DNA of 64,000 bases from a virus: positions 125,901-189,900 of IMG/VR virus record IMGVR_UViG_3300044970_001522; one strand, written 5' to 3'. Positions 3,431 through 63,444 of the stretch are shown here, in pieces. Made by a program: the position numbers and the translations under genes. Within the stretch, counting starts at the first letter, position 1; each line of letters opens with the position of its first letter. The notes under the pieces are model-generated. The model was not told where the DNA came from and searched no databases. It was given only the letters and a program-made list of their open reading frames with translations.

Positions 3431-3437
3431 GGGTAAA
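3431..3437 (+). promoter_or_regulatory. GGGTAAA motif, candidate late promoter
   Basis: The motif starts 29 bases before the ATG at 3460 and is followed by ACTCTTAG, matching the looser downstream TTAG seen at other copies. Confidence 0.6.
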
Positions 3438-3459
3438 AACTCTTAGCTACCTCACTGAA

Positions 3460-3735
3460 ATGACCACACGAAGAAAAAGTACTCCCGACACAGAAACAGT
3501 TCCCCCAGATAACACCGAGGAGACAACCACTGTGACAACTGCACCTGAACACCCTATCGAGGAACTAGGCGAGTCTCACCTGGAGCCTCACCAGGAAATC
3601 CCTCAGGAGGACCACCCTGAAGCAAGCTCTGAGGCGCCCCCTGTGAAAGAAGCAGAGGCGGCACTACGACCACCCGCACTCGCTAAGCGACTACCGTCAA
3701 AAAACACTCCGAAGTTTTCCCTCAAGATACGGTAA
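3460..3735 (+). CDS. Small acidic, Pro/Glu/Thr-rich protein
   Basis: This 91-residue protein is rich in Pro, Glu, Thr and His, with a basic Lys/Arg tail over about the last 25 residues. That composition suggests intrinsic disorder. No domain is recognisable. It sits behind a GGGTAAA motif and four bases ahead of the baseplate spike gene, which suggests a tail-assembly accessory or linker. The function is unknown. Confidence 0.6.
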   Translation: MTTRRKSTPDTETVPPDNTEETTTVTTAPEHPIEELGESHLEPHQEIPQEDHPEASSEAPPVKEAEAALRPPALAKRLPSKNTPKFSLKIR

Positions 3736-3738
3736 ACT

Positions 3739-4935
3739 ATGGCCCAAAGCCTGAGAAACATTCCATGGATTCGACAACAGGCCGAGATGGCGAAAGCCAT
3801 CGAAGCCAACGCGAGGTACGCCGGGTCACCCAGGGGAACTGTTCGTGGAACGATAATTAGTGTTGAGGACCCTGAAGACTTGGGAAGAGTCAAGGTGCTG
3901 TTCGACGCCATGAACCCTCAGGACATTCCTTCAGTCGAAGGTGCTGGGGAGTTTTCTCTACCAAGACCAGGAGAGTCAAGCAACTTGTCACACTGGCTCG
4001 ATGTTTCCCCGGCTTTCAAGGGAAAGCAGCCGAAGACACTCGAAGGAAAGAGAGTGAATATTTCTCTGAGCAACGGGGAGTACCACTATGCAGTTTTGCA
4101 AGACGTACTGTACGACCCTCAGAATTTAACCGACGGCTCTCAGCAAGCTCTACAGATTCCGAGCAACAGCACAATGACTCGGCTGCCGATATACGAAGCT
4201 GGCGGTCTGCCCCCGGCATGCAAGGAGAACCACGGTTGCACTGTTGTTGAAGAAAACGGTCCAATGAACTCAGATTGGGTGTGTATTTGTCTGAAGAGAG
4301 ACGGACAGTACATTTGGGTAAGGCACGCAGATTTGGCGCACGGGCACGCAGGCGGAAACGATGTTACATCGCAGGTTGACTCTGCTGGAAATCGTCTCAG
4401 CCCTGGACAAATGGCTGCAACATACGACCACGTCTTTGTTACAAGTCATCAGGAAATGAAAAAAGAGGGGCGAACCGGGTACTCTACTGCTCCTGCGGGA
4501 AACCCTTGGGGATCTGCTGCAGCGTGGGCACCGCCCCCGATGAGCACGATACAAGCGTTCAAGTTTGTGGAAGGGCCTTTGTTCAGCCAAGACACTGCCC
4601 TTAGCTTTGCACGAAATTCTGGGTTTATCGATAATATTACCGGGTCGTTCATAACCACCTACAACCCTGAAATTCTTGCTGCAGTCGAGAGTGTCCCAGG
4701 GTCGAATTTTACGAAGACAGCGATTCAGCAAGCACAAAAAGTTCTAAACTTCTCAGAAGTTCTTAGAAAAGTCATAGCAGACCCCACCGACTTTGTGAAA
4801 AATGCGGCAGAGAAGTCGCTGCCGTCCTATGTTCCGGGTGCCACCAAGTTTGTCATCTCGACGCTTCAGAACCCTGCGGCAACAATAAAAACTGTTTTCT
4901 CTAAGCTACCCTCCTTACCAAACCCATTCAAATGA
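3739..4935 (+). CDS. Baseplate spike/hub protein, gp5/gpV-type OB domain
   Basis: Residues about 30-130 contain the pattern GTVRG-x-IISVEDPEDLGRVKV, the start of the OB-fold found in T4 gp5, P2 gpV and VgrG-type spikes. The later stretch around WLDVSP and YHYAVLQDVLYDP fits the same fold. In that family the OB domain links the hub to the membrane-piercing needle of a contractile tail. The C-terminal half has no lysozyme domain that I can see and ends in helical, Ala-rich sequence, so any needle or tip may be in another protein. The next gene overlaps it by four bases (ATGA). This is the clearest evidence in the left part that the tail is contractile. Confidence 0.75.
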   Translation: MAQSLRNIPWIRQQAEMAKAIEANARYAGSPRGTVRGTIISVEDPEDLGRVKVLFDAMNPQDIPSVEGAGEFSLPRPGESSNLSHWLDVSPAFKGKQPKTLEGKRVNISLSNGEYHYAVLQDVLYDPQNLTDGSQQALQIPSNSTMTRLPIYEAGGLPPACKENHGCTVVEENGPMNSDWVCICLKRDGQYIWVRHADLAHGHAGGNDVTSQVDSAGNRLSPGQMAATYDHVFVTSHQEMKKEGRTGYSTAPAGNPWGSAAAWAPPPMSTIQAFKFVEGPLFSQDTALSFARNSGFIDNITGSFITTYNPEILAAVESVPGSNFTKTAIQQAQKVLNFSEVLRKVIADPTDFVKNAAEKSLPSYVPGATKFVISTLQNPAATIKTVFSKLPSLPNPFK

Positions 4936-5303
4936 CTTTCACCGAGGATTACGACCCAGGCTTTGTCAACTCTCCGGGGTTCGGCCAGAGTGCTACAAAC
5001 CCATTGGCACCAGTGTTCTACAAATCCCTCGGAGTCGTTGAGAACCTTTGCGTGTATGACTCTATTTACGCGGCCAACTCTGTAAGTGCCCACGTTTCTT
5101 TCTCCATCGGGAAAAGCTTCCTGAGTCAGGAAAGATTCTTTGTTGCGGTACCCACAACTTTTCTTGAGCCGGTAACTTGCGAACAGGACCTGAGAGTCGA
5201 GGCGATAACCAACACGGACCGACTCATTGTGGACGGAAAGGAGTACCGAGACCGGGTAATTGTGGGGAGAAATGGAACTTTTCATGCATTGGTGAGGGTC
5301 TAA
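4932..5303 (+). CDS. Small virion-block protein, 123 aa, unknown
   Basis: It starts in an ATGA overlap with the spike gene and its own stop overlaps the next start (TAATG). The sequence is compact, with beta-like alternation and no motif I recognise. Translational coupling to the spike on one side and to another small protein on the other suggests a minor baseplate or tail completion protein. Function unknown. Confidence 0.7.
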   Translation: MTFTEDYDPGFVNSPGFGQSATNPLAPVFYKSLGVVENLCVYDSIYAANSVSAHVSFSIGKSFLSQERFFVAVPTTFLEPVTCEQDLRVEAITNTDRLIVDGKEYRDRVIVGRNGTFHALVRV

Positions 5304-5713: not shown

Positions 5714-5735
5714 CTACCTAGACCTGGTCCGCAAA

Positions 5736-5742
5736 GGGTAAA
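5736..5742 (+). promoter_or_regulatory. GGGTAAA motif, candidate late promoter
   Basis: Exact motif, extended as AGGGTAAAATA, in the short gap after the 5713 stop and 56 bases before the preferred ATG at 5792. An in-frame GTG at 5756 lies closer, so either the leader is longer here or the GTG is used. Confidence 0.5.
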
Positions 5743-5791
5743 ATAAAAAGACGGGGTGAAAACACTCCCTGAAATTTTCACAACATCAGAC

Positions 5792-6441: not shown

Positions 6442-6448
6442 GGGTAAA
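6442..6448 (+). promoter_or_regulatory. GGGTAAA motif, candidate late promoter
   Basis: Motif 30 bases before ATG 6472. The leader contains AAGGGAAGAG, a possible ribosome binding site. Confidence 0.6.
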
Positions 6449-7563: not shown

Positions 7564-8787
7564 ATGGAACTGAATACAATAACTAAAATAGAGCAATTCC
7601 TCTGCGACTCTCTTATTGCATCCCCCCTCATACCAATTGGGGTTAATGTATTGCGTTTGGCTGACGCGGTTGAGAATGAGGGCGTTGTAACTCAGACGAA
7701 CAACATTGTTGTGCGCTACGAAAGCTCAACAAGCAATGTTAAGAACCGAGTGCCTTTCATATACGAAGACACTCTCAATTTTGAGCTTAACTTTTCGTGC
7801 CAAAACTACCTGACGAGCTCAGGACACGACTTTGCCACGCAACTCCTCATGGGCGCAAAGATCACACTATCGGGGAGTGCCCCTTCGGGTGCTTACGTGC
7901 AAGTTTTGGAACCTTTTCGATGCTCTACGTCCCAGTTCACAGGCTTAAGCCCGGAGTCCCAGTACACCTACACTCAAAACTGGTCCGTAACTATCGAGGA
8001 AACCCTACCATACATAGCACTCGACCCCTGTGTTCAACGCGGTGACTGCCGCCAAATTTTCCCCACTCGAAATGTCCTGACTTCTTTACCCTTAGCCGGT
8101 GTTCTCGATGAAGCAACGGGGTGTATTTATGTGCCATGGTACCCTGAGACGAACCCCCTAGATGCCGCACTCACAGATGCACTCGGAGTGCAGTGGAGTG
8201 AGGAACTCACGCAGTCAGGGGATTGGGTCTATGTTCGCAGCCCGAGTGAAGTATTCCTCGAAGATCCTTTAAGTCAGCCGATCTACTTGCTAAGTAATAA
8301 GAATTTCACGGCGGACGGTCGCCTGGTTGTAACAATTTGGAACGCCACAACAAAGCAGCCCATAAAGGAAGTTTTCTACGTTAACTCCGGGAAAAAGCTT
8401 GCTCGTTACGCTGTGGATCTTTGGAGGAACACGGTTTCTGGCGCAGCCAAGGGGGAAATAGACCCACTAAGTGTGAAGGATGCGTCGTGGTCGTCGGGAC
8501 TCACCTACGGGGAGTTCGCAATTGTGAGGGGGGCGAACCGAACCCTGTACTCAGACCCCCTAGATCCGAACGGCAAGACGCAAACTTTGATGGGTGGAAC
8601 ACTCGTCGGTGTAAAACCCGACACGTTTATTCAAACACCGCAGGGACGGTTCTACTTTGTAGCCCAGTCTCCGCAGGGTAAAGGTTGGTTGATACAAGAT
8701 TCCTTCGAGCTTGCGTCGATTAATTCCTTGTGGAAACTCGGCTGCATTCCTTGTGAGGGTGGGCCAAATCCCCCAAGTCTCTGTTAA
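7564..8787 (+). CDS. Putative tail terminator / head-tail completion protein
   Basis: The first 150 or so residues loosely follow the layout of Mu gp37/DUF1834 proteins: an N-terminal helix, a strand carrying VVRYESS, a central helical stretch, and an edge strand ending in WSVTIEETLPY. The remaining 250 residues are extra and unassigned, with Cys pairs near residue 180 and at the C-terminus (CIPCEGG). Position directly after the gp36-like adaptor supports the call. A tail tube or minor virion protein is an alternative. Confidence 0.45.
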   Translation: MELNTITKIEQFLCDSLIASPLIPIGVNVLRLADAVENEGVVTQTNNIVVRYESSTSNVKNRVPFIYEDTLNFELNFSCQNYLTSSGHDFATQLLMGAKITLSGSAPSGAYVQVLEPFRCSTSQFTGLSPESQYTYTQNWSVTIEETLPYIALDPCVQRGDCRQIFPTRNVLTSLPLAGVLDEATGCIYVPWYPETNPLDAALTDALGVQWSEELTQSGDWVYVRSPSEVFLEDPLSQPIYLLSNKNFTADGRLVVTIWNATTKQPIKEVFYVNSGKKLARYAVDLWRNTVSGAAKGEIDPLSVKDASWSSGLTYGEFAIVRGANRTLYSDPLDPNGKTQTLMGGTLVGVKPDTFIQTPQGRFYFVAQSPQGKGWLIQDSFELASINSLWKLGCIPCEGGPNPPSLC

Positions 8788-8789
8788 GT

Positions 8790-11052: not shown

Positions 11053-12471
11053 ATGTCACTTAAACACCAAAAATTAACGCACGCTTCCCAATTAGCGGAG
11101 CACTCAAGCTGGAGGAGCTACCAAAGAAAACTCCTTGAGCTGAAACTTGAAGGGTTACCTCGAGAAGCGTTCGCCAAGGAAAGTGCGAAAAGTAGCTTTC
11201 TTGCTTTCTGCGATCTTGTTTCCGATGCAGGAGGCTTCTCACTCGAAAGTGCGCCGCTCGACGCAAAGGCGTACGAAGTGGTGGGTTCCGCATTTGAGGA
11301 TATTGCCGAGGGAAGGTACCCGGTTCTCCTCGTGTCGATGCCACCGCGCACAGGGAAAACCACTCTAGGGGTTCACTTGCTGTCCTGGCTGCTTAGCAAA
11401 GACCCCATGGCTAGCCACTTTGTAACCTCGTACACACAGGATCTTGCCGCGTCGGTAGTTCACAAGACTAAGCATATGGTTCAGTCCTCCCCGTTCCGGA
11501 CGTACTCCTCTGTGGTTCCCCCGCTTGCATCGTTTCATGTTTTACCAGTCTCCTTTGGGGGGTATGTGTTGCGGGGCTATTACGGTAGCTTATACGAAAC
11601 GCCAGGCGTATGGCTAATCGATGACTGCCACAACGGCGTGTCGGACGGAAGTGTCAACAAGAAACAGATACGCGAAATAGAAGACCATTGCGTAGGCAAG
11701 AGTGCCACAGTCGTTCTCGGGTCTCGATTAGGCGAGGGAGACATTTTCAGCTACTTTCTGGAAAAGTACGGAGTCTTTGACCCAGTCTCAAATCCGAAAG
11801 GAGCCGTTCACATTAACTTGTCCGCCATCATTGAGAGCGAAGAAGAAGCCAAGGCTGACATCCTCGGCAGGAAACCTGGACAGAGCATCAATGATGCTAA
11901 CACCACATTTAGCCCAAAGAATCTACAGGACTTGCGGAAAACAATGGGGGATGTAAAGTTCTCGTGGTTGTACAAAGGGGTGCTCTCCACTGGGTTCGGA
12001 GTCTGCTCCGAGGTACCCCCTCTAGATAAGGTCATTATCTCTATTGACCCCTCTTGCTCGCCAGGCAACGCGGATATGACTGGGATTTGTGTGGCTGGAT
12101 CCACGAAGGAAAAGGACTGTGTGTACGTTCTCGACGCGTACCAGGCCAACTGGGACTTGGAGACTGTTGGCGTAATTGTTTCTCTAGCCGCTAAAGCCTA
12201 CGGTGTTACAGAAGTTGTTATCGAGTCGTCCATGGCGAGTGAACACTGGAGTCAGTACCTACAGAAGCTAGGCCTACCTGTTCGAGTGAGCAAGGAGAGA
12301 GTGGTGGCTAAGGCACTTGCGATCAATCTAATGGTAAAGTCGGGGAAAGTAGCATCCAACTCAGATATACACAACGTGTTGTTTAAAAGTTGGGAGTGCA
12401 TTGGATCGTACTCAGATATAATGGACGCTATTTTGGTTAGCTTCATGGAACTACTTCCACCTTCTGTTTAA
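11053..12471 (+). CDS. Second, divergent terminase large subunit
   Basis: This 472 aa protein has its own Walker A, MPPRTGKT, at 96-103, a Walker B-like GVWLIDDCH near 185-193, and a motor region with VVLGSRLGEGD. Nuclease-type acidic positions are also kept: SIDPSCSPGNADMTG, VVIESS and YSDIMDAILVSF. The N-terminus closely parallels the neighbouring TerL (THASQLAEHSSWRSYQR against THVSQLDEYSSWRDYQR), so the two are paralogs from an old tandem duplication. Key residues look intact, which argues against simple decay. Whether it packages DNA, assembles with the first TerL, or has been reused is unknown. Confidence 0.8.
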   Translation: MSLKHQKLTHASQLAEHSSWRSYQRKLLELKLEGLPREAFAKESAKSSFLAFCDLVSDAGGFSLESAPLDAKAYEVVGSAFEDIAEGRYPVLLVSMPPRTGKTTLGVHLLSWLLSKDPMASHFVTSYTQDLAASVVHKTKHMVQSSPFRTYSSVVPPLASFHVLPVSFGGYVLRGYYGSLYETPGVWLIDDCHNGVSDGSVNKKQIREIEDHCVGKSATVVLGSRLGEGDIFSYFLEKYGVFDPVSNPKGAVHINLSAIIESEEEAKADILGRKPGQSINDANTTFSPKNLQDLRKTMGDVKFSWLYKGVLSTGFGVCSEVPPLDKVIISIDPSCSPGNADMTGICVAGSTKEKDCVYVLDAYQANWDLETVGVIVSLAAKAYGVTEVVIESSMASEHWSQYLQKLGLPVRVSKERVVAKALAINLMVKSGKVASNSDIHNVLFKSWECIGSYSDIMDAILVSFMELLPPSV

Positions 12472-12779: not shown

Positions 12780-12786
12780 GGGTAAA
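12780..12786 (+). promoter_or_regulatory. GGGTAAA motif in the phoH leader
   Basis: Exact motif, followed by GTCACTCGTAG. The next start codon is 133 bases away, so it would give a much longer leader than other copies. Confidence 0.4.
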
Positions 12787-12912: not shown

Positions 12913-13635
12913 ATGTTGAAAAGTCGAGACAAGCGCAAGTCACGTCGCGCTGAAACAGCTCAAACGGTCGAACGTTCCTACGGCAGGGGTATGGATGTCA
13001 TACCCTTCTACTCAAAGTCTGACCGCCAAGAAGATCTTTGGACTTCCTTAAACAAAAATACAGTCACCATAGCTATTGGACCCTCCGGAGTTGGAAAAAC
13101 TCTTGTGGCTCTTTGGTGGGGTTTGACTGAGATTTCAAAGGGTAATATACAGAAAGTTTACTACATTCGAAGTGATGTAGGATGCTCTCATCAAAGAAGT
13201 AGGGGTGCCTTGCCTGGAACGCTTGAGGAAAAGATGAAACCTCTTGTTGGGCCAGTATACGACAATTTGGTTGTAATGACTAAGAGTAGGGGGGCTGCTG
13301 ACTACTTGGTTGATAAGAAAATTGTAGAGCCCACTCTTCTAGAGGACTTACGGGGAAGATCGCTAAATGAGTGTCTGATTCTTTTTGATGAGGCTCAGAA
13401 CTCTATGCCCGAAAACGTCAAAACCGTCATTAGTAGGGTTGGAAAAGATTCAAAAGTTATCATTACAGGGGACACTAGACAAATTGACCTCGATGTGTTT
13501 AAACCTGAAAACGGACTCTTAGACTGCTACCATCGACTTTCCTCCATTCGGGGTGTAGGGAGAGTTAAGTTTGAAAGGGAAGATATTGTAAGAAATGGGA
13601 TTATAGCGGAAATCCTGGAGGCTTACGAGGCTTAG
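12913..13635 (+). CDS. phoH: PhoH-like ATPase
   Basis: The protein has a Walker A, GPSGVGKT, at residues 56-63 and a Walker B, CLILFDEAQN, near 155-165. It also has the PhoH-family stretches ALPGTLEEKM and VIITGDTRQID. PhoH proteins are P-loop NTPases proposed to be RNA helicase-like and are very common in marine phages; their role in infection is not settled. The 240 aa length fits phage PhoH. The gene stands alone between a long leader with a GGGTAAA motif and a strong terminator, so it may be its own transcription unit. Confidence 0.9.
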   Translation: MLKSRDKRKSRRAETAQTVERSYGRGMDVIPFYSKSDRQEDLWTSLNKNTVTIAIGPSGVGKTLVALWWGLTEISKGNIQKVYYIRSDVGCSHQRSRGALPGTLEEKMKPLVGPVYDNLVVMTKSRGAADYLVDKKIVEPTLLEDLRGRSLNECLILFDEAQNSMPENVKTVISRVGKDSKVIITGDTRQIDLDVFKPENGLLDCYHRLSSIRGVGRVKFEREDIVRNGIIAEILEAYEA

Positions 13636-13709: not shown

Positions 13710-13716
13710 GGGTAAA
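13710..13716 (+). promoter_or_regulatory. GGGTAAA motif, candidate late promoter
   Basis: It lies directly after the phoH terminator and 78 bases before ATG 13788. A 14-residue GTG-started frame (13747-13791) ends in an ATGA overlap with that ATG and might act as a leader peptide. Confidence 0.5.
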
Positions 13717-14501: not shown

Positions 14502-14508
14502 GGGTAAA
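14502..14508 (+). promoter_or_regulatory. GGGTAAA motif, candidate late promoter
   Basis: Motif 31 bases before ATG 14533, continuing as GTTTAGC. There is no clear ribosome binding site in the leader. Confidence 0.65.
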
Positions 14509-15144: not shown

Positions 15145-15825
15145 GTGGGCAACCCTAGGAAAAAATGCACAGCAGGAAAGTCTTGCTCGGCAACTTGCAT
15201 AAGCAAGGGTTTTAAGTGCGAGAAAAAGTTGCCGGCGTCAGTGAGCGACAGTCTCACACGTAACAGTGAAAAGTTGCTGCACCTTGGGGAGCATGTTGGG
15301 GCCAACGTAACTTCCTGGAAAGTTGGGAAAGTTGTTGGCCCCCTGGTATCAAAGTACCTAGAAACTCGCTACGGCATACCCCCAGAAACCACAGAAAAGT
15401 TATCAGAGACTATTATTCAAGCGGTGGTTGCCACGGGACTTCACTCTCGACATTTAAGGTCGAGTGAGGACTTTGTAAGGGACCTGCTCACAGAAGCTTC
15501 TGCCGCGTTCCTGGGAAAAAGTGCCCACTCGGGTGTGGACAGTTTTCTAACCAGCCAGGAAAGTCGTGAGATCGTCCAACAAGCTTTGCCCCTACTTGCA
15601 GGAAAGTTCACTGGTATTGGAGCGGCGTTTGCAGGGTCAAAACTTCCCAAAGTGGCCCAAATTTCGGGCGCCATATCACGAAAGTACAACTCCGACCTTT
15701 TGAAGCTTCAGAAGCTTTTTAGAAGCTCTGAGGAGTCCTTTTCTGAGCAGACCGACCAAGCAACCTCAGCTAAGTTTCTCGGAGACCTTTCTCTTCTCTC
15801 GGTTTTACTGTCCTTGAACGGGTAA
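15145..15825 (+). CDS. GKSC-motif protein, 226 aa, hydrophobic C-terminus
   Basis: The likely start is GTG at 15145, after a GGGG-containing leader. Residues 8-25 carry KCTAGKSCSATCISKGFKC, four cysteines in a pattern shared with the N-terminus of the kinase-like protein at 20373. The rest is Ala/Leu/Ser-rich and helical, with several moderately hydrophobic stretches that could associate with membranes. No enzyme motif is seen. The shared tag suggests it is handled like the kinase, for instance packaged or delivered, with this C-terminal part as a different cargo. Its stop codon is made by the GGGTAAA motif that precedes the next gene. Confidence 0.65.
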   Translation: MGNPRKKCTAGKSCSATCISKGFKCEKKLPASVSDSLTRNSEKLLHLGEHVGANVTSWKVGKVVGPLVSKYLETRYGIPPETTEKLSETIIQAVVATGLHSRHLRSSEDFVRDLLTEASAAFLGKSAHSGVDSFLTSQESREIVQQALPLLAGKFTGIGAAFAGSKLPKVAQISGAISRKYNSDLLKLQKLFRSSEESFSEQTDQATSAKFLGDLSLLSVLLSLNG

Positions 15826-15826
15826 A
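15820..15826 (+). promoter_or_regulatory. GGGTAAA motif, candidate late promoter
   Basis: Motif 29 bases before ATG 15849. The TAA inside it is the stop codon of the upstream gene. Confidence 0.65.
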
Positions 15827-16218: not shown

Positions 16219-16225
16219 GGGTAAA
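16219..16225 (+). promoter_or_regulatory. GGGTAAA motif, candidate late promoter
   Basis: Motif 31 bases before ATG 16250, with the extended form AGGGTAAAGTTTAG identical to the copy at 14502. Confidence 0.65.
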
Positions 16226-17418: not shown

Positions 17419-17425
17419 GGGTAAA
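17419..17425 (+). promoter_or_regulatory. GGGTAAA motif, candidate late promoter
   Basis: Motif 32 bases before ATG 17451, immediately after the TAG stop of the upstream gene. Confidence 0.65.
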
Positions 17426-18278: not shown

Positions 18279-18285
18279 GGGTAAA
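18279..18285 (+). promoter_or_regulatory. GGGTAAA motif, candidate late promoter
   Basis: Motif 29 bases before ATG 18308, continuing as ACAACTTAG. A CCAAGGGA stretch just before the ATG may bind the ribosome. The rest of the gap 18178-18278 shows nothing recognisable. Confidence 0.65.
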
Positions 18286-18820: not shown

Positions 18821-18827
18821 GGGTAAA
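18821..18827 (+). promoter_or_regulatory. GGGTAAA motif, candidate late promoter
   Basis: Motif 48 bases before ATG 18869. A GAAGGGAA stretch precedes the ATG. Confidence 0.55.
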
Positions 18828-21798: not shown

Positions 21799-21805
21799 GG
21801 GTAAA
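21799..21805 (+). promoter_or_regulatory. GGGTAAA motif, candidate late promoter
   Basis: Motif 48 bases before ATG 21847 of the large fibre gene. Confidence 0.55.
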
Positions 21806-26622: not shown

Positions 26623-26629
26623 GGGTAAA
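26623..26629 (+). promoter_or_regulatory. GGGTAAA motif, candidate late promoter
   Basis: Motif 34 bases before GTG 26657. Confidence 0.6.
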
Positions 26630-30298: not shown

Positions 30299-30619
30299 AT
30301 GAAAAAAGGAAACCACTGCCCACTTATTCGAAAAGAATGCATTGAAAATAAATGTGCTTGGTACTGCCAAGCGAGAGGTGTGAACCCGAACACGGGTCTT
30401 GAGGTATCTGAGTGGCAATGTGCTGTGAACCTCCTTCCGGTTCTTTTAATTGAAAATTCGTATCAGCAGAGGCAAACCTCCGCGTCTGTTCAAAGTTTCC
30501 GAAATGAATCAGTGGAAAGATCGGACTTACTGAATACGATTCTACTGCAAGCTTCTCAGGGGCACTCACGCAGAGACTCAATCCAGCCTGTGGACCTGAA
30601 AGAGCTTTCACCAGGGTAA
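30299..30619 (+). CDS. Conserved small phage protein with Cys cluster, 106 aa
   Basis: The N-terminus has CPLIRKECIENKCAWYC and a further Cys in WQCAV, followed by LLPVLLIEN and an SFRNE helix. I recognise this arrangement from small conserved proteins in many phage fibre or head regions. The cysteines may bind zinc. Function is not known. ATG 30299 was preferred over the TTG nine bases earlier. The stop lies inside the next GGGTAAA motif. Confidence 0.65.
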   Translation: MKKGNHCPLIRKECIENKCAWYCQARGVNPNTGLEVSEWQCAVNLLPVLLIENSYQQRQTSASVQSFRNESVERSDLLNTILLQASQGHSRRDSIQPVDLKELSPG

Positions 30620-30620
30620 A
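30614..30620 (+). promoter_or_regulatory. GGGTAAA motif, candidate late promoter
   Basis: Motif 28 bases before ATG 30642, continuing as GTCCCTTAG. The TAA inside it stops the upstream gene. Confidence 0.65.
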
Positions 30621-33694: not shown

Positions 33695-33703
33695 GGGTAT
33701 AAC
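33695..33703 (+). promoter_or_regulatory. Variant of the GGGTAAA motif (GGGTATAAC)
   Basis: This one-base variant lies 41 bases before ATG 33736, in the same relative place as exact copies. An AAGGAG ribosome binding site precedes the start. Confidence 0.4.
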
Positions 33704-35237: not shown

Positions 35238-35311
35238 CGAGTAGGTTCGTGTAAGAAGCTTTACCCTTGGCTTAACAGCGCTAAACTCCAAGTAGAAACA
35301 ACTCACTAAAT

Positions 35312-39002: not shown

Positions 39003-39009
39003 GGGTAAA
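39003..39009 (+). promoter_or_regulatory. GGGTAAA motif, candidate late promoter, with a second partial copy
   Basis: Exact motif 31 bases before ATG 39034. A near copy, GCGGTAAAAC, begins about ten bases earlier. It marks the switch from metabolic genes back to tail genes. Confidence 0.65.
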
Positions 39010-41232: not shown

Positions 41233-41239
41233 GGGTAAA
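41233..41239 (+). promoter_or_regulatory. GGGTAAA motif, candidate late promoter
   Basis: Motif 46 bases before ATG 41279 of the tape measure gene. Confidence 0.55.
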
Positions 41240-47544: not shown

Positions 47545-49569
47545 ATGGCAGATCCCTTTTCCGGGGGGCTCGGAAGTACGAAACAAGAGATTGGAATACT
47601 AACCGAGGCGAAAGAGCGAAACAAGGCAGCGTCCTTCCGGTCGAAGAAAGACGGAGAGGAAAAACAAGAGAAGAAAAAGAGAGCCCCCACAAAAGTGTCC
47701 GAGCTTTACAACTCGGGCATTACCCTACTGAAAGCGAAAGGTTTCGTTGTTGAGATCGATGAGTCAGGTGATCACTGTAGGCACCGCATTCTGAAGCCCA
47801 CGCCACCGGTAATGGTAAGGGGAATTCAGTACCCGGCAGACTTCAACCCCTTGCAGGATATCTCAGTTTACGACGACTTTGAGAAGATCGAATCCTGTTT
47901 TCACCCTGATTTGTGCCCAGACGACGTAAGAACTTTCTGGGAACCTTTATTCAAACCGAAAGCCGGTGACTCAGATCTCGTCTCTTTCACAGAGCGGCTG
48001 CTGAAGATGAAGAGAATAAACATGAGCAAGAGTATTCATGACACGCTAAGTTACGGTCATACGTTTGACCCTGCGGCTCGGTGGGGTGGAGTTCCTGTCT
48101 CTAATCCAAGGTCGTGGGTTCCCGACAGAGACTGGTTCAACCCTGTTCTGCAAATGGTGACCTTAGCTGACGTTTTCTCAATCTTTCCTGAAGCCGAGAG
48201 GGAAATGCTTAGACTAATTATTGGGCGAATTGGTGTCGGCAGGTCAAATCACTTGCCACCGGGAAAGGACCAGCCTGTAGATCACACTGCTCGTATGGCG
48301 GGGGTGATTGTGGGTAAGGATGCTGGATTAGGAAAGTCGACTCTCTTCAATGGAATGACCGCAGCTTTTTCCAAGTGCGGTTTTGTAACTCACACATTTA
48401 AATCGACTGAAGATCGCTTCGGCCTTAAAGCTGCTGCTCTTAGTGACATAGCATACAAGGATGATACCTCCTTGGCTTCTCTCAAGAAGTTCCTTGCTTC
48501 TGAGGAGACCAAGATTTTGATCACGAATGGGCTTTTCCAAGTAGAAGAAAAGTTCGAAAAAGCCGAGCAAATTTGGCCAAAGACAGTCATATTGGTTAAC
48601 TCCAATGACTGGAACAGTAAGTTTGCCTACGATCTCGACCCTGGGATCATAGATCGAATCAAGCTCATTAGTACATATAGGGAGTATGAGGTAACAAAAA
48701 ACATCGAGAACACGAAAGGGACAGTGTCAGAGGGGTCTCCCGACCTTCGCCCACGAGCACACATTCCTTACCTCGCTAATAAGCTAGGTGTGAGTGCTGA
48801 TGCGTTGTATCTTTGGTGTCTCCGCCTCGCTACCGATAGGTTCTGGGAAATCATTAACGATGTAGCTGATCCCCGCATCAATCGCCTTCAGGTTGAAGTG
48901 CGCTATTGGACCACACGACAAAGGATCCGATTCAAAGCCGATGTCACACAGGCACTCGTTAATGCCATGGCGTTCGCTCACTCGGTTCGAACGGGGTCAG
49001 ACCTTAGCTTCATGCCCGAGCTGACGCCGGACGTTCTCTACGAGTATCTCAGTTCTCTTTACTTTGTGGGAGTGGACCCGTCGTGCCAACACTTAACTGC
49101 GAGCATGAAAAAAGAGTGGGAGAACGCAGGGCGTCCGTCGACACATTACTACCAAGGTTTCCGAGAGCTAAGGTGGGAATCTGTGAGAAAGGCAATTTCC
49201 CTCGCACGAGAGTTTCTGTTCGACGAAACGACGGGTCAGCGGCAAGAGACCAAGGACAAAACAGCTCTGACGCTAATTCGAGAGATAATGGAAAAGCTGG
49301 TGATGAGGGATGGTTTTAAGATTGGTGGCGAGGCGAACTACGTCATTGAAAACTGGAACAATTGTCGTCACGCTCAAGAGGAACTTGTTTTGGAAGGGGA
49401 AAAGCTAGTTGAATCCATGGAAGACATGGACAAACAAAGACTACTTAACCCTAAGACAAATTGCTGTGACGATTGGCTTCTTGACAAGAACTACTCACCC
49501 GATGTTGCTGAAAGGTTCCGAGAATCCGCACGTAAAAAACTCTACGAGGCTAAAGGGGTAAAAGTATGA
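47545..49569 (+). CDS. Primase-helicase, SF3/D5-like ATPase
   Basis: The ATPase core has a Walker A, GKDAGLGKST, at 257-266, a Walker B-like AALSDIAYKDD near 298-308, and a sensor region with KTVILVNSND near 350, fitting virulence-associated-E or D5-like SF3 helicases. The first 240 residues may hold the primase or an accessory domain, but no clear primase signature was seen. The 674 aa length fits a fused replication protein. It lies after the SSB-like gene and overlaps the next gene by four bases. Confidence 0.7.
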   Translation: MADPFSGGLGSTKQEIGILTEAKERNKAASFRSKKDGEEKQEKKKRAPTKVSELYNSGITLLKAKGFVVEIDESGDHCRHRILKPTPPVMVRGIQYPADFNPLQDISVYDDFEKIESCFHPDLCPDDVRTFWEPLFKPKAGDSDLVSFTERLLKMKRINMSKSIHDTLSYGHTFDPAARWGGVPVSNPRSWVPDRDWFNPVLQMVTLADVFSIFPEAEREMLRLIIGRIGVGRSNHLPPGKDQPVDHTARMAGVIVGKDAGLGKSTLFNGMTAAFSKCGFVTHTFKSTEDRFGLKAAALSDIAYKDDTSLASLKKFLASEETKILITNGLFQVEEKFEKAEQIWPKTVILVNSNDWNSKFAYDLDPGIIDRIKLISTYREYEVTKNIENTKGTVSEGSPDLRPRAHIPYLANKLGVSADALYLWCLRLATDRFWEIINDVADPRINRLQVEVRYWTTRQRIRFKADVTQALVNAMAFAHSVRTGSDLSFMPELTPDVLYEYLSSLYFVGVDPSCQHLTASMKKEWENAGRPSTHYYQGFRELRWESVRKAISLAREFLFDETTGQRQETKDKTALTLIREIMEKLVMRDGFKIGGEANYVIENWNNCRHAQEELVLEGEKLVESMEDMDKQRLLNPKTNCCDDWLLDKNYSPDVAERFRESARKKLYEAKGVKV

Positions 49570-51966: not shown

Positions 51967-51995
51967 TTTGCCTTTCCCCTCAGAGGCGCTATACT
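51967..51995 (+). promoter_or_regulatory. Sigma70-like promoter before a phage sigma factor
   Basis: TTTGCC at 51967-51972 and TATACT at 51990-51995 are 17 bases apart. It lies 21 bases before ATG 52016, so the host polymerase may drive this sigma gene. Confidence 0.55.
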
Positions 51996-52015
51996 TATTG
52001 TAGTTGAAAAACACC

Positions 52016-52618
52016 ATGTACACAGACGAAACCTTTTACAACGCAGTTCGAGGAGATTCTCTAGCGGTCACAGAGACTCTGAAGCAGTTCACACCCCTTG
52101 TTCATAAGTTTGCTATAAGGTACAAATTTATGGGTCACGATTATATCTACGATGATCTTGTTCAAGAGGGTTTACTTGGCATCGTAAAGGCTATCAAAAC
52201 GTTTGACCTTAACTACAGGGTCAACGGGCGAGGTATTCGCCCAATGACGTGGATCTACCCTAATGTTCGTGGTGCGGTTCAAGGTGCTGCACGAAAAGAG
52301 AAAAAGAACCCCAAATTTGCGCTATCCTTAGAGCAGTCAGACTGGTCGAACAACCTTGAAGACCCGAACGCTTACGAGCTGAAAGAAGAGTTTGCTCGCA
52401 TAGACATTGCAGACATTATAAAGAAGGGTTGTGGTTCTCTTGACAGCAAGAGAGCACAAATCGTCTGCGACCGTTTCGGACTACTTGGCAGAAAGGCAAT
52501 GCGACAGGGGGAAGTTGCTCAAAAGTATGGGCTTACGAAACAGGCTACAAACGGCCACATTTCACGTTTCACCAAAAAAGTGCGTGAGGTTAGTCCCGAA
52601 CTTCGAAACTTTATCTGA
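52016..52618 (+). CDS. Sigma70-family RNA polymerase sigma factor
   Basis: Region 2 is seen as DDLVQEGLLGIVKAIKTFDLNYRV followed by RPMTWIYPNVRGAVQ, the core-binding and -10 recognition helices. The C-terminus has a region-4-like helix-turn-helix (GEVAQKYGLTKQATNGHISRF). At 200 aa it is a compact group 3/4-type sigma. It may redirect host polymerase to phage promoters, perhaps the GGGTAAA sites. ATG 52016 was preferred over TTG 52004. Confidence 0.82.
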   Translation: MYTDETFYNAVRGDSLAVTETLKQFTPLVHKFAIRYKFMGHDYIYDDLVQEGLLGIVKAIKTFDLNYRVNGRGIRPMTWIYPNVRGAVQGAARKEKKNPKFALSLEQSDWSNNLEDPNAYELKEEFARIDIADIIKKGCGSLDSKRAQIVCDRFGLLGRKAMRQGEVAQKYGLTKQATNGHISRFTKKVREVSPELRNFI

Positions 52619-52627: not shown

Positions 52628-52984
52628 ATGACAGAAAACAAGTCCACCACAACGGTTGTTGTAACCAAGGTGTTCGACCTTGGATGTCCAGTCTGTGACA
52701 CGATGTCCCGGTTCGACAAGTCCATGTTTGAGGGGTTTCCCGAAGTTTCTTTTCAAGAGATACCCTTTGACACCCTTCGAGACTTTAATGGGAACGCAAC
52801 ACGGACTCGAATCTACCAGTGTCTCGAACGCTACGCAGTTTCAGACACCTACGAGATAGACTTCCCTACTTACCTCTTCCTGAGTTCAACGGGAAAGTAC
52901 CTAGGATTCTTGCAAGGTGCCCTGTCTCTAAGGGAACTAAGAGGGGGGGTAAAACAAATTTTAGAACAGCACACTTCTGAATAA
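52628..52984 (+). CDS. Thioredoxin-like protein
   Basis: CPVC lies at residues 20-23 after a short strand and a cis-Pro region reads IDFPTYLFL near 78. This is the thioredoxin fold with an active-site dithiol. It likely reduces ribonucleotide reductase or other phage or host proteins. It begins nine bases after the sigma gene stop. The 118 aa length is usual. Confidence 0.78.
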   Translation: MTENKSTTTVVVTKVFDLGCPVCDTMSRFDKSMFEGFPEVSFQEIPFDTLRDFNGNATRTRIYQCLERYAVSDTYEIDFPTYLFLSSTGKYLGFLQGALSLRELRGGVKQILEQHTSE

Positions 52985-55590: not shown

Positions 55591-57534
55591 ATGAATACAG
55601 AACTTACCCGCCCACATTGGATGAATGAAGAGGCCCTTCATACTCTCTCTAATGGCTACTTATTAGTAGGTGAGACTCCGAAGGATATGTTTAGCCGTCT
55701 CGCAAAAACGGCGTCAAAGATAAACGAAGATCCGACACTAGACGAAGACTTGTTCCACTGCCTATGGTCCGGATGGATCGGCGCGGCGAGTCCGGTGGCT
55801 TCCAACTTCGGTACATACCGTGGTCAGCCTATATCGTGCTTCTCTGTTCACCCTTCAGATAGCATTTCCTCTATCTACTCACACTTAAAAGAAGTAGCTC
55901 AACTAAGCAAGAGTGGGGGCGGAGTGGGCAACTACTTCGGGGAAATTCGTCCTGCAGGGTCGCCTATAACCGGGGGTGGAAAATCAATTGGTGCTGTGCC
56001 CTGGATGCAGCAATACGACATTTGTGCGAGAGTTGTGAGCCAAGGGGGAGTCAGGAGAGGATCATTCGCTTTTTACCTGCCTATTGATCACCCGGACGTT
56101 CCAGAACTGCTTCGTGCAAAGGATCACACAAAAGGGGATCCGAGGACATGGGTAGACTCAAACATAGCACTCACAATAACCGACGAGTGGGTTGAGTCCA
56201 TGATAAAGGGAGACAAACAAAAGCATGAGTTGTTCGCAGAGGTTTTGAGAACAAGAATGATCTCGGGGACCCCGTACCTAATCTTTATTGACAATGCTAA
56301 TAACCAGAACCCGGACTGCTACAAAGAAAGGGGACTGACTGTAAAGACCAGTAATTTGTGCTCGGAAATCTTCCTACACACTGACGAGAACCACTCATTC
56401 GTGTGCGTCCTCAGCAGCTTAAACCTGAGTCGCTACGACGAGTTTAAGGACTGGAAGTCCCCTGTCTCAGGCCGCACTGTTCCTCAAATTGGGATCCACT
56501 TCCTTGAGGCGGTCGTTAGTGAGTTTATACGCAAAGCCAAAGACAAGGTTGGCATGGGTAGATCCGTTCGTTTCGCAGAGAAAAGCCGTGCTCTTGGCTT
56601 GGGAGTCATGGGACTTCACTCCCTCTATCAACTGCATGGACTACCCGTGAAGTCACAAGGGGCGCGAGCGTTGAATGTTGAAACAACTCGGTGGATGAAG
56701 GAAGAAGCAGTCAAAGCGTCGAAGGAGTTGGCCGAGCGGTTTGGGGAACCAGAATGGTGCAAGGGCACCGGAATGCGTCACACGCACTTAATCGCGATCG
56801 CACCGACCAAAACAAATAGTGTGATTTGCGGGGCAGGCACCGAAGGCATAGAGCCACGAGACCGAAACTACTACGTCGCCAAACAAGCCAAGGGCACTTA
56901 TGTTCGAAAGAACCAGTACCTTGAAAAAATCTTCTGCGATCGAGGAGTAGGTCCGGAAGTTTGGGATCAAATTCTAGTGGCCAAGGGGAGTGTTCAGGGT
57001 GTTGAATGCTTAACTGAGCACGAGAAAGAGGTGTTCAAGACTGCACGAGAGGTAGACCAGTTTGAGCTTATTAAGCAGGCGGCAGATCGGCAACCCTACG
57101 TGTGTCAGGGTCAATCGCTAAATCTGTTTCCCGACCCGAAGTCGGATGCATCGTATATTACTCGTCTGCACCTAGCGGCATGGAAAATGAAGCTAAAGTC
57201 GCTTTATTACCTAAAGTCAAGCAGCCTTCTTACGAATAAAGAAGTTGTTCCTGCTTTGATTGTGACCCGCGAGGGTTGTCCGTGGTGTGTGAAACTTAAG
57301 AACGAGCTATCTATGGAGGGAGTTCGGTACGAAGAAATTACTAAAGTGGAAGCGGAGGAGAAAGGCTTCTGGAACCCTGAGTGGACAACTGTACCCCAAC
57401 TGTGGCTTTTCAAGAAACACATTGGAGGTTATACCGACTACATAGCATACAAACAATCGAATAACACCGAGACGGTCAGCGCCCATGACGATTCAGACGG
57501 CGCTTACAACGAATGCAAAAGCTGCGAGGCTTAA
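55591..57534 (+). CDS. nrdA: Ribonucleotide reductase alpha subunit with fused glutaredoxin domain
   Basis: The catalytic region has SGGGVGNYFG, SQGGVRRGSF, NLCSEIFLH and CVLSSLNLS with the active-site Cys set, and LKSLYYL with the paired Tyr. After it, residues about 552-620 form a glutaredoxin domain with CPWC at 563-566 and a TVPQLWLF cis-Pro. The extreme C-terminus carries CKSC at 642-645, the usual redox tail. At 647 aa it is a short alpha subunit without an ATP-cone. The internal glutaredoxin would reduce the enzyme directly. It ends one base before the sigma gene. Confidence 0.88.
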   Translation: MNTELTRPHWMNEEALHTLSNGYLLVGETPKDMFSRLAKTASKINEDPTLDEDLFHCLWSGWIGAASPVASNFGTYRGQPISCFSVHPSDSISSIYSHLKEVAQLSKSGGGVGNYFGEIRPAGSPITGGGKSIGAVPWMQQYDICARVVSQGGVRRGSFAFYLPIDHPDVPELLRAKDHTKGDPRTWVDSNIALTITDEWVESMIKGDKQKHELFAEVLRTRMISGTPYLIFIDNANNQNPDCYKERGLTVKTSNLCSEIFLHTDENHSFVCVLSSLNLSRYDEFKDWKSPVSGRTVPQIGIHFLEAVVSEFIRKAKDKVGMGRSVRFAEKSRALGLGVMGLHSLYQLHGLPVKSQGARALNVETTRWMKEEAVKASKELAERFGEPEWCKGTGMRHTHLIAIAPTKTNSVICGAGTEGIEPRDRNYYVAKQAKGTYVRKNQYLEKIFCDRGVGPEVWDQILVAKGSVQGVECLTEHEKEVFKTAREVDQFELIKQAADRQPYVCQGQSLNLFPDPKSDASYITRLHLAAWKMKLKSLYYLKSSSLLTNKEVVPALIVTREGCPWCVKLKNELSMEGVRYEEITKVEAEEKGFWNPEWTTVPQLWLFKKHIGGYTDYIAYKQSNNTETVSAHDDSDGAYNECKSCEA

Positions 57535-57535
57535 T

Positions 57536-58213
57536 ATGGCAAAAAGACGCTACAGGCGCTACCCTGAGCTCACAAAAGAGCAACAGTGTTTGGTAAGAGA
57601 CCACAAATGGATCGCTGGACGACTCGCCTACGGTGCCAAGTGCTCGACAGGCGGATACACCGGATCTCTCACAAGAGAGGACCTCGAGTCAATAGCGAAT
57701 TTCGCACTCTGCGTTGCTGCTACACGATATGATCCCGACAAAAAAGTTCAGTTTAGCACCTTTGCTTGGAGAACCGCCAGAGGCTATATCCAGCACGCTT
57801 TGCGGGACTACTCCCGAATGGTGAAAACCCCGCGATGGGTTGCGACGTATAAGACCAAGGTAGACGAGCTACTGAAGCAAAAGAAGACTTACACCGAAAT
57901 TGCGACAGAGTTGGGATTACCTGAATCGAAAGTAATTATGGTTGATATGACAACTCATAACTACCATGTTTCCTACGACTCTAACCCTGAAGATTGGACC
58001 ACACGAGAGTTTATTTTTAACGACGACGATGTTAAGCCTTACGTGGCTTCTCCCGAACTCGTAAGGTCCATGAAAGAACTTTCAGAGTCCGAACTCAATA
58101 CTGTGGTCAAATATGCTGAGGACAAAGACCTGTCGTCTGAAGAGAGAGAGTGGGCCGCAGACAAATTCTACAAATTGCAGGCAATTGCACATGGATTCAC
58201 CGAGGACATTTAG
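57536..58213 (+). CDS. Sigma70-family sigma factor, second
   Basis: Region 2 reads DLESIANFALCVAATRYDPDKKVQFSTFAWRTARGYIQHALRDYSR, followed by VKTPRWV, the standard pattern of group 3 sigma factors. A region-3-like helix pair follows (TYTEIATELGLPESKV). The C-terminal region 4 is weak. ATG 57536 lies one base after the nrdA stop. A phage sigma with this signature is a good candidate for late transcription; which promoter it reads is unknown. Confidence 0.82.
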   Translation: MAKRRYRRYPELTKEQQCLVRDHKWIAGRLAYGAKCSTGGYTGSLTREDLESIANFALCVAATRYDPDKKVQFSTFAWRTARGYIQHALRDYSRMVKTPRWVATYKTKVDELLKQKKTYTEIATELGLPESKVIMVDMTTHNYHVSYDSNPEDWTTREFIFNDDDVKPYVASPELVRSMKELSESELNTVVKYAEDKDLSSEEREWAADKFYKLQAIAHGFTEDI

Positions 58214-60225: not shown

Positions 60226-60232
60226 GGGTAGA
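60226..60232 (+). promoter_or_regulatory. Variant motif GGGTAGA, candidate late promoter
   Basis: One base from the consensus and 32 bases before ATG 60258, the standard spacing. Confidence 0.45.
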
Positions 60233-60610: not shown

Positions 60611-60617
60611 GGGTAAA
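60611..60617 (+). promoter_or_regulatory. GGGTAAA motif, candidate late promoter
   Basis: Motif 29 bases before ATG 60640. Confidence 0.65.
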
Positions 60618-61206: not shown

Positions 61207-61291
61207 GTAGAACTCACCGCAAGAGCGGGAGTACCTTGGAGCACGGAACGCTAACCTCCACTCAGATCCAATCGAAAAAGAACTAGTAAGA

Positions 61292-61828: not shown

Positions 61829-61845
61829 CTTCACCTATTACAAAC

Positions 61846-63171
61846 ATGGCACACGGTTCTTTTTCTTTTGAAGCTCTCCAAGCGTACGAAGCTCTCGTCG
61901 CCGAGACGCACCCTTTGAACTTCTCCGAGGGGGAAACGTACGACTTTACACGTTGTGTGAGGAAGGACGGTACTATATACGGTAGCCGAGGAAAGTGTAA
62001 GCAGGGTACAGAAATTGGGGCGAAAGAGGAGAGTCAAGTAAAAGGAAAGCGTGGCCCTAAGGCAGGGGGAATGAGGCTCACCGAAAAAATAAAAGGGTTG
62101 GGAGCTGAAGACCTTAAGAAGGTTCTCCAGGACCCTCGCGTAACCCCAAAGCAAAGGGCAGTTTTAGAAGGTTTGCTCAAGAGCAAAGGGGGAGTGAAAG
62201 CTCCTGAGGGCCAGATGTCCAAGAAGGGTAGCGGGCCAGATAGGAAAACCAGCAGGGAAGAGCTGAGGAAAGCAGTCTCAGAAAACAACCCTAAGGTGCA
62301 GGATGAATACGATTGGGTTGGGTCAGGCCCCAAAGCAGTGGCGGAAATAAAAAGAAGTTACAGGATGATGCAAACCCTGGTCAAGTCGCCGGAGTTGGAC
62401 ACGGTTGCAAATAAGGCTCGATTGATTAATCTTCGACTGTTGATTTATCAGAAGGAAAGAGAGCTGAAGGAAAGGAAGAAGCCAGGCAGAGACCCGAAGA
62501 CGTACGAAGCGGATCTAAAGAATTCCCCTAAGTATGACAAGACTCCGGGAAGTAGCTCCCCGATTCCTAAACGAGTCCCGAAAGATTCCGGTGAAACAGA
62601 ATTACCGTGGTCGCCAAGTTTAAAGTCCCTTTACGAGAAGCAGGGATTCAACGCCAAGCCCGAACTTGTTGCAACGGTTGACGATTTACGAAAACGAAAG
62701 GACATTGTAACAAACTCGGACGGGTCACCTCTAATCTTCTATCGTGGTGTTGGGGACGAGAAATTCGCGGATCAATTTAAGGGGTTGGGGAGCGAGGGGG
62801 GTAGTCACTACCCTGGTAAAGGAATATTCGGCAATGGGTCCTACGCCGCAGCACCTTCCTACCACGACCCGAGCGAAGCGTCTACCCGTAAAGCCATTAA
62901 GACAGCAAAAGAGTATGCAGGGGATAGGAATAATCTTTCTTCAAAAGTTACGGCTTTTGCACTTAGAAAAGACGCAAATATAGTACAATTCAGTGGTAAA
63001 ACAGCGCAAGAGGGAATGGAACAGCTCATGGGGTGGAGGGAAATAACCCTGAACGAAGCTCAGAATAAGACCGGGTACCGCTTCAAGGACTTGGGGGGAA
63101 GCTGCAGCGGCAGTGGGAATCCACGCCTTCACTTTCCCCTCACTTGGGAAAGACTATTTGGTTCTCCTTAA
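61846..63171 (+). CDS. ADP-ribosyltransferase-like protein with C-x13-C tag
   Basis: The start ATG 61846 gives MAHGSFSFEALQAYEAL and then YDFTRCV-x7-YGSRGKCKQGTE. A long charged linker (about 70-285) follows. The C-terminal 145 residues read FYRGVGDEKF with Arg300, then GKGIFGNGSYAAAP near 325-337, then a helix with AKEYAGD and VTAFAL. This is the R...G-x-G-x-[YF]-x-[ST]-like layout of ADP-ribosyltransferases, as in phage Alt/MuF-linked toxins. The catalytic Glu is not certain. If real, it would modify host proteins after delivery. Confidence 0.6.
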   Translation: MAHGSFSFEALQAYEALVAETHPLNFSEGETYDFTRCVRKDGTIYGSRGKCKQGTEIGAKEESQVKGKRGPKAGGMRLTEKIKGLGAEDLKKVLQDPRVTPKQRAVLEGLLKSKGGVKAPEGQMSKKGSGPDRKTSREELRKAVSENNPKVQDEYDWVGSGPKAVAEIKRSYRMMQTLVKSPELDTVANKARLINLRLLIYQKERELKERKKPGRDPKTYEADLKNSPKYDKTPGSSSPIPKRVPKDSGETELPWSPSLKSLYEKQGFNAKPELVATVDDLRKRKDIVTNSDGSPLIFYRGVGDEKFADQFKGLGSEGGSHYPGKGIFGNGSYAAAPSYHDPSEASTRKAIKTAKEYAGDRNNLSSKVTAFALRKDANIVQFSGKTAQEGMEQLMGWREITLNEAQNKTGYRFKDLGGSCSGSGNPRLHFPLTWERLFGSP

Positions 63172-63222
63172 CCGTGGAGCAATCATTGCCGCCATGGACT
63201 CACAAATCCCCGACGAAAACGA

Positions 63223-63387
63223 ATGAACATCAACGACCCCACAATCAGCCGCATTCTCGCTGTTCTTATTCAACCGGTCCTTTTCGAGGATAGGCGCAAG
63301 TTCATCGAAGATGCCGAGAAAGCAACCAACATGGACTCCTTCATCAGGGGCATTAACAGGTACAAGACGGATACTACTGAGACATAG
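63223..63387 (+). CDS. Very small protein, 54 aa
   Basis: An ATG-started frame lies in the gap between the ADP-ribosyltransferase-like gene and the lysin. The sequence (ILAVLIQPVLFEDRRKFIEDA) suggests an amphipathic helix pair. No family recognised. It is supported mainly by codon usage and by a ten-residue frame ending in ATGA overlap with its start. Confidence 0.45.
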   Translation: MNINDPTISRILAVLIQPVLFEDRRKFIEDAEKATNMDSFIRGINRYKTDTTET

Positions 63388-63437
63388 GCCGGGGGAACCT
63401 TTCCTTGTGCTCTCAGGGACTCCTCTTACGGGGCCGA

Positions 63438-63444
63438 GGGTAAA
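63438..63444 (+). promoter_or_regulatory. GGGTAAA motif, candidate late promoter
   Basis: Motif 43 bases before ATG 63481, followed by ACCTTAGTAACC. Confidence 0.6.

Follow-up and report, generated by a model that had tools for sequence, protein, structure and literature searches.

A putative late promoter element, GGGTAAA, in a cyanophage lineage related to Synechococcus phage S-CBWM1 and a candidate phage sigma factor to read it

The stretch of DNA analysed here, called the window, is the final 64 kb (64,000 nucleotides, nt) of a 189,900-base virus record (IMG/VR IMGVR_UViG_3300044970_001522, record positions 125,901 to 189,900). The nearest annotated isolate is Synechococcus phage S-CBWM1, genus Aokuangvirus (terminase 58% identity across 88% of length). 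The + strand holds 274 of the 279 called genes of the record. Among the five - strand calls one alone counts as a convincing gene, with 56% identity to an S-CBWM1 gene that also lies on the - strand. Leaders across the whole record are G-poor and contain very few Shine-Dalgarno sequences, with AGGAG found at 4-20 nt upstream in just 10 of the 274 + strand genes. In the window, the heptamer GGGTAAA, which an initial annotation had proposed as a late promoter motif, stands in front of many genes, and two sigma factors, SigY and SigX, are encoded. The sites and these genes are listed in window coordinates.

3431..3437, + strand: GGGTAAA, 29 nt before ATG 3460
5736..5742, + strand: GGGTAAA, 20 nt before GTG 5756, next ATG at 56 nt; unchanged in one relative (L020)
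6442..6448, + strand: GGGTAAA, 30 nt before ATG 6472 (head-tail adaptor homologue)
12780..12786, + strand: GGGTAAA, upstream of phoH (12913-13635); phoH of S-CBWM1 likewise has a site
13710..13716, + strand: GGGTAAA, 78 nt before ATG 13788
14502..14508, + strand: GGGTAAA, 31 nt before ATG 14533
15820..15826, + strand: GGGTAAA, 29 nt before ATG 15849; site also at the S-CBWM1 homologue gp088
16219..16225, + strand: GGGTAAA, 31 nt before ATG 16250
17419..17425, + strand: GGGTAAA, 32 nt before ATG 17451
18279..18285, + strand: GGGTAAA, 29 nt before ATG 18308
18821..18827, + strand: GGGTAAA, 48 nt before ATG 18869
21799..21805, + strand: GGGTAAA, 48 nt before ATG 21847 (baseplate wedge homologue, 1590 amino acids)
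26623..26629, + strand: GGGTAAA, 34 nt before GTG 26657 (BNR-repeat homologue)
30614..30620, + strand: GGGTAAA, 28 nt before ATG 30642 (weak tail-fibre-assembly match)
33695..33701, + strand: variant GGGTATA, a candidate, 41 nt before ATG 33736 (tail protein match)
35260..35266, - strand: GGGTAAA, 29 nt before the ATG of the sole convincing - strand gene
39003..39009, + strand: GGGTAAA, 31 nt before ATG 39034
41233..41239, + strand: GGGTAAA, 46 nt before ATG 41279 (tail tape measure)
51968..51995, + strand: host-type promoter TTGCCT-N16-TATACT in front of sigX, read from the sequence
52004..52618, + strand: SigX, the second phage sigma factor, with sigma-2 and a region-4-like end; sigma-3 not found
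52947..52953, + strand: GGGTAAA inside the metabolic block, absent from the initial count; GGGTAAA in 4 of 4 aligned relatives
57485..58213, + strand: SigY, a sigma-70 family protein with sigma-2, a sigma-3-like part and no recognisable sigma-4; proposed reader of GGGTAAA
58395..58401, + strand: GGGTAAA, 32 nt before GTG 58427 and 182 nt past the end of SigY
60226..60232, + strand: variant GGGTAGA, 32 nt before ATG 60258; GGGTAAA in 4 of 4 aligned relatives
60611..60617, + strand: GGGTAAA, 29 nt before ATG 60640
63438..63444, + strand: GGGTAAA, 43 nt before ATG 63481

The + strand of the window contains 23 copies of GGGTAAA and the - strand two (5' ends 35266 and 8091). All 19 + strand coordinates named in the initial annotation are exact, and the copies at 8676, 49556, 52947 and 59575 have to be added to its count. 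The 25 copies compare with a mean of 9.0 and a maximum of 15 in 100 dinucleotide shuffles. Seventeen of the 23 + strand copies lie within 70 nt upstream of called + strand genes, a zone of 4,690 of the 64,000 bases in which 0.47 copies are expected from a second-order Markov model, or 0.84 with the model trained on these zones. The twelve sites reported at 28-32 nt before a start codon were also recovered, as 11 of the 19 together with the variant at 60226 (open reading frames of at least 50 amino acids). The convincing - strand gene is itself preceded, at 29 nt from its ATG, by GGGTAAA on that strand; its S-CBWM1 homologue has no such site. Genes behind the window sites encode head-tail adaptor, PhoH, baseplate wedge, BNR-type and tape-measure homologues and many unknown proteins.

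Contrary to its first description the motif is not phage-wide. Across the record, GGGTAAAR is present on the + strand twice in the first 100 kb and 30 times in the last 90 kb, and four times in all on the - strand. The host-type pattern TTGnnn-N17-TATAnT is found 21 times in the first 100 kb and once in the last 90 kb, with three copies on the - strand. The early promoter class has the pattern of host primary-sigma promoters; the late sites do not. About twenty early promoters (record 1-100000, e.g., 2265, 11681, 44061, and 94110) share a compact layout, in which a GGGCGGTTT-CCC stretch ending in TTGTTT or TTGCCT (-35) is followed by a spacer, often with an inverted repeat, and then by TATAnT. 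The sigX promoter is of the same kind but with a 16-nt spacer. When four early promoters were folded as RNA, two were clearly better than shuffles (z -2.3 and -4.0) and two were not (z -1.4 and -0.15); these elements are possibly combined terminator-promoters. Five - strand copies of GGGTAAACCGCC at 40-61 kb were rejected as copies of this motif; they represent the GGCGGTTTAC stretch of the early promoters in reverse.

The heptamer is shared by the relatives. In 45 IMG/VR loci found by terminase, GGGTAAA is present 204 times in forward and 18 times in reverse orientation, compared with 38 and 16 for the reversed word AAATGGG. For upstream counts and the logo described below, 41 of the 45 terminase large subunit (TerL) loci were used, four with an identical terminase being dropped, and for the upstream counts regions identical in their last 25 nt were merged; the relatives are not independent samples. 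Among the 416 distinct upstream regions, GGGTAAA lies at -38..-20 in 77 vs 3 at -78..-60, and all 21 single-base variants together occur four times. In S-CBWM1 and the metagenomic relatives the heptamer is typically positioned 28-38 nt before ATGs, almost without variants. Whole-record GGGTAAAR strand counts in nine lineage contigs, picked mainly for length from 90 loci found, and in S-CBWM1 were 42:16, 2:30, 1:26, 4:14, 3:22, 25:3, 4:24, 25:6, 4:25, and 37:2, where the 42:16 and 4:14 records are weaker because their reversed controls gave 15:7 and 1:11.

No comparable excess was detected in eight other phages, for which the strand counts of GGGTAAAR (reversed control in brackets) were S-TIM5 15:9 (7:5), S-PM2 6:2 (4:6), Ma-LMM01 2:1 (5:5), T4 2:8 (4:12), SPO1 12:6 (23:6), P-SSM2 5:2 (15:2), S-CBS2 3:1 (2:0), and S-CRES1, tested for its first 45 kb, 3:0 (4:1). 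In S-TIM5, which has the largest count of the eight, GGGTAAA is found before the 163 called genes only at -89 and -79. S-TIM5 has upstream boxes of its own instead, GTTTAAAG/GATTAAAG and TGATATAAT (L118-L126), and GTTTAAAG resembles GGGTAAAG with the second and third G replaced. The initial annotation had named equal frequency inside coding DNA and in unrelated phages as an outcome that would refute it; the motif is not equally frequent inside coding DNA or in other phages, which favours that annotation.

S-CBWM1 contains GGGTAAA 43 times in forward and six times in reverse orientation. According to its gene annotation, which was made by others, sites precede the genes for the portal (31 nt), head maturation protease (35), tape measure (36), tail fibre (32), an endosialidase-like protein (31), a BNR protein (36), and endolysin (30), and further sites precede unknown genes and nicotinamide mononucleotide (NMN) adenylyltransferase (31 nt). 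Those of PhoH (46 nt), the major head protein (70), and the tail sheath (98) are more distant. Sites are also present before two tRNA genes, at 18 nt (tRNA-Thr; L062:24755-24773) and at 39 nt (tRNA-Gly). As tRNA genes need no translation signal, these sites, only two cases, argue for a role in transcription and against a translation signal.

For conservation of the individual sites, alignments of >95% identity or not spanning the site were left out, and 13 of the 25 sites had no passing relative. The sites at 5736, 14502, 15820, 16219, 18279, 18821, and 58395 are unchanged in aligned relatives, which says little because the relatives are 89-95% identical there. Of the two variants described initially, 60226 is probably a real site, since all four aligned relatives, at 79-83% identity, have GGGTAAA at this position, and 33695 has no aligned relative. 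The copy at 52947 is kept as GGGTAAA in 4/4 relatives at 69-79% identity, three of which are mutually close; as it lies inside the metabolic block, the statement that no site serves this block needs a slight correction. Most copies inside genes lack conservation, with GGGTAAA in one of eight relatives listed for 8676 and one of five for 59575; at 49556 one of three relatives has GGGTAAA and two have GGGTATA. In a joint footprint of 41 alignments a modest conservation peak is visible, with 0.84 in the heptamer vs 0.73-0.82 in most surrounding bins, and 0.95 and 0.85 at the two bases flanking the heptamer. The peak is modest partly because in-gene copies were pooled in.

The logo of the relatives reads (A/C)GGGTAAAA, followed by weak pyrimidines; A is favoured at offset 14, and C is infrequent at offset 15. 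Of 148 distinct sites, the 88 followed by an ATG at 25-38 nt were used to build it; for 48, no ATG start was present at 15-60 nt. Apart from positions -3 to -1 beside the motif, all positions from -40 to -4 of these 88 sites carry at most 0.14 bit, so there is no -35 signal, and no conserved upstream box corresponding to a GTTTAA -35 at 12-14 nt is present in the 88 sites or in the 19 window sites. The TTAG reported downstream of the motif survives as a weak tendency: at offsets 12-14 the 19 sites have T in 9, T in 12, and A in 14 cases, TTA occurs at offsets 7-21 in 27 of the 88 sites, and the strict pattern GGGTAAANNNNTTAG has no match in the record.

Two proteins of the record contain sigma-70 region 2 (E <= 0.001), SigY and SigX. 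SigY is 242 amino acids long and matches region 2 (PF04542) with 34 bits, above the cut-off of 24; its sigma-2 fold is secure (Z up to 11.6, root-mean-square deviation (rmsd) 1.8 over 77 residues). In the C-terminal part no Pfam region-4 match was found, and three helices appear in a moderate model (predicted local distance difference test (pLDDT) 69.6, predicted template modelling score (pTM) 0.41); whole-chain structure alignments gave an rmsd above 20. None of the best-scoring NCBIfam models (SigF, SigBFG, and FliA/WhiG) reaches its cut-off; the SigBFG model TIGR02980 matches 18/18 members of the SigY family at E <= 0.01. The best profile match among solved structures, setting aside a repeat protein whose match is confined to a short repeated segment, is sigma-B of Staphylococcus aureus (8x6g chain H). 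sigY and the end of the ribonucleotide reductase gene overlap, both here and in S-CBWM1, so SigY is probably made from that operon. In both phages the next late site follows less than 200 nt past the end of SigY (58395; 110001 in S-CBWM1).

In passages of the S. aureus sigma-B study (PMC11156646), R110 reads G-15, R100 G-14, and R97 G-13, and A-11 is assigned to F79/F86. A gapless alignment places R110, R100, and R97 at R117, R107, and H104 of SigY, each invariant in 18/18 homologues. At the positions of F79 and F86, SigY homologues mostly carry M or K (position 86) and F or Y (position 93). The SigA proteins of Synechococcus 7942 (9dvs) and Synechocystis 6803 (8gzg) have V and A at the equivalents of R117 and R107, and none of six other phage sigmas compared has the H-R-R triad. 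The residues fit the proposal that SigY would read GGGTAAA, without proving it.

From these results we infer that GGGTAAA is, with high probability, a promoter element, and its targets are very likely the late genes. SigY is probably its reader. The complete proposal, in which GGGTAAA forms the -10 element of late promoters read by SigY without a -35 box, we consider likely. SigY, as a small sigma factor of the sigma-B/sigma-F type, would bind the host RNA polymerase core. The GGG would be read where sigma-2 ends and sigma-3 begins, and the A of GGGTA would be captured in sigma-2. A -35 box would not be needed because the DNA-binding part of sigma-4 would be missing or degenerate; a SigY without -35 reader fits a promoter without -35 box. 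In sigma-B numbering the first G would be -15 and the RNA would start 14-15 nt after it, often at the A or G of TTA(G), leaving a leader of about 14-20 nt without Shine-Dalgarno sequence. Early genes and sigX would use host-type TTG-N16/17-TATAnT promoters. Once SigY is made, probably from the ribonucleotide reductase operon, the last 90 kb with the virion, packaging, and tagged proteins would be switched on.

Several observations weigh against this proposal. The 19 window sites have a few upstream columns of 0.3-0.4 bit, which are not seen in the 88 sites of the relatives. In S-CBWM1 the copy at 105129 lies 68 nt before nrdB and several copies lie inside genes, and in the window 49556 is only 10 nt from an ATG, too close for the proposed start. 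The region-3 Pfam match of SigY (15 bits) is below its cut-off of 25.3, the apparent absence of sigma-4 is read from a Pfam null and a moderate model, and the SigBFG score of 44.8 bits is far below the curated cut-off of 234.35. Foldseek puts SigD first and sigma-B sixth, with SigA and sigma-S chains beside or above sigma-B. The position of F79, which helps to hold A-11 in sigma-B, is M, K, R, or L in SigY. A distant SigY-like sigma of S-TIM5 (E 1.2e-7) has N-R-R, and S-TIM5 has no GGGTAAA at the right distance; as it keeps R107 and R117 without the motif, the arginines alone do not fix the specificity. The SigF-like sigmas of S-CBS2 and S-CRES1 have H-R-H, keeping H104 and R107, and these phages show no GGGTAAA promoters; the prediction that the motif would extend to cyanophages with SigF-like sigmas, tested on S-CBS2 and the first 45 kb of S-CRES1, failed.

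The late promoter might instead be read by SigX, with SigY doing something else. With region 2 and a region-4-like end, SigX makes up a complete small sigma; it is conserved in the lineage, and homologues occur in several contigs that also carry SigY. However, sigma-3 was not found in SigX, G and L align at the G-reading R97 and R110 of sigma-B, and a sigma with region 4 should leave a -35 signal, which is not seen in the 88 sites of the relatives. We regard this as unlikely.

Less probable still is a reading by a group-3 sigma of the host (SigF type) or by a host sigma together with a phage activator. Cyanobacterial SigF groups with sigma-B in the portion of PMC2758279 consulted, and TAAARY resembles a -10 box. 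However, GGGTAAA shows no sign of being a host motif: it is found at -38..-20 in 0/979 upstream regions from 79 cyanobacterial psbA loci, and a Cyanobium genome of 3.5 Mb has 49 GGGTAAAR vs 93 for the reversed control. As the sampled psbA loci come mostly from cyanobacteria other than picocyanobacteria, they could miss a small host SigF regulon. Neither a conserved activator box nor a -35 is present upstream of the motif.

It is very improbable that GGGTAAA acts as an RNA element, either a processing site or a ribosome-loading signal, in the long transcripts of a phage that makes little use of Shine-Dalgarno sequences. The narrow range of distances to the ATG, the scarcity of AGGAG (before merely 10/274 genes), and the copies that overlap or abut the end of the preceding gene would agree with such a role. 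However, the motif is limited to the late half though the whole genome is poor in Shine-Dalgarno sequences, it stands 18 and 39 nt before the S-CBWM1 tRNA genes, and its GGGTA is identical letter for letter to the known sigma-B -10. A Shine-Dalgarno or leader element was rejected, as such words are scarce genome-wide and not only past the motif. A chance word is ruled out by position, strand, and relatives.

A dedicated late promoter had initially been ascribed to a phage sigma factor or a modified polymerase; the sigma factor is the best-supported reading, and no phage polymerase was recognised. Single-subunit RNA polymerase (PF00940) was found in 0/3 lineage records; since it matched no cellular control, T7 was added as positive control, where it was found. 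The bacterial-type beta subunit (PF00562) was not recognised in the record. Both nulls speak against a phage polymerase.

Two further observations were made on the gene products. Several late sites (window 17451, 58427, and 60640) precede genes whose products have a short N-terminal tag in common, GSFS-x-EA/DA-xx-AY, and a tag of the same form is found in NMN adenylyltransferase, kinases, and gp023 of S-CBWM1, as if it marked unrelated proteins for a common fate, e.g., packaging into the virion. At 11053-12471 of the window a second terminase-large-subunit-like gene adjoins the first and has 30% identity to the S-CBWM1 TerL.

Phage sigma factors with late promoters of their own are a classical theme. 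T4 late promoters have the sequence TATAAATA. Like these promoters, which depend on gp55, gp33, and gp45, the sites described here consist of a single -10-type box without -35 in front of late virion genes, and the phage sigma lacks a recognised sigma-4 DNA reader. Unlike in T4, the sequence is different, SigY has a sigma-3-like part, and the T4-type sliding clamp (PF02916) was found in 0/3 lineage records but in T4 itself, with DNA_pol3_beta in 0 of the same 3; a T4-type mechanism is therefore unlikely in detail. With sigma-B/sigma-F promoters of Bacillus subtilis, S. aureus, and Streptomyces the sites share the GGGTA -10 and an expected start ~15 nt past the first G, and SigY keeps the arginines that read the first two Gs. 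Sigma-B promoters are given as GTTTAA-N12-14-GGG(A/T)A(A/T) in the consulted part of PMC8346170. In difference to them, the phage has no -35 box, an A as seventh base and mostly A or G as eighth, and its sigma, without recognisable sigma-4, targets late genes of the phage and not stress genes. For phiEco32 and 7-11, passages of PMC4331800 likewise describe short phage-sigma promoters (TAATGTATA, TGATGT) and host-type early promoters in another part of the genome, but these motifs are unrelated and the sites far fewer (10 listed for 7-11). Ma-LMM01 is also a cyanophage with temporal classes; its late genes, however, are under SigA-like promoters, and the part of PMC5780444 consulted reports no gp55 homologue.

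New is the combination of a lone sigma-B/F-type GGGTA -10, an extremely uniform heptamer and a clean split into host-type and phage-type promoters, together with a sigma factor whose -35 domain has apparently been lost. Among the titles and abstract openings listed in the literature search, none concerned a GGGTAAA phage promoter, and none of the papers contained the word Aokuangvirus; an earlier mention in the S-CBWM1 genome paper is possible. Rather tentatively, SigY may be a stress-type sigma that was turned into a one-piece late sigma after losing its -35 reader. Sigma-2 and sigma-3, acting on a double-stranded GGG and one flipped A, would then specify the whole late regulon without a -35 box, activator, or sliding clamp, and the C-terminal helices would perhaps be a flap-binding remnant like T4 gp33. 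If true, SigY would have arrived independently at what T4 achieves with gp55, gp33, and gp45, and it would exemplify the 'fused late-transcription sigma' on whose absence the excerpted part of a T4 review remarks (PMC2988020).

The results provide a concrete and testable transcription programme for a little-studied cyanophage lineage with a cultured member, S-CBWM1, comprising two promoter classes in separate territories, a named candidate for the late reader, predicted start sites, and predicted DNA-reading residues. This would make it easier to distinguish early and late genes of metagenomic relatives by sequence alone, and it offers a natural sigma factor that apparently works from a -10 element only.

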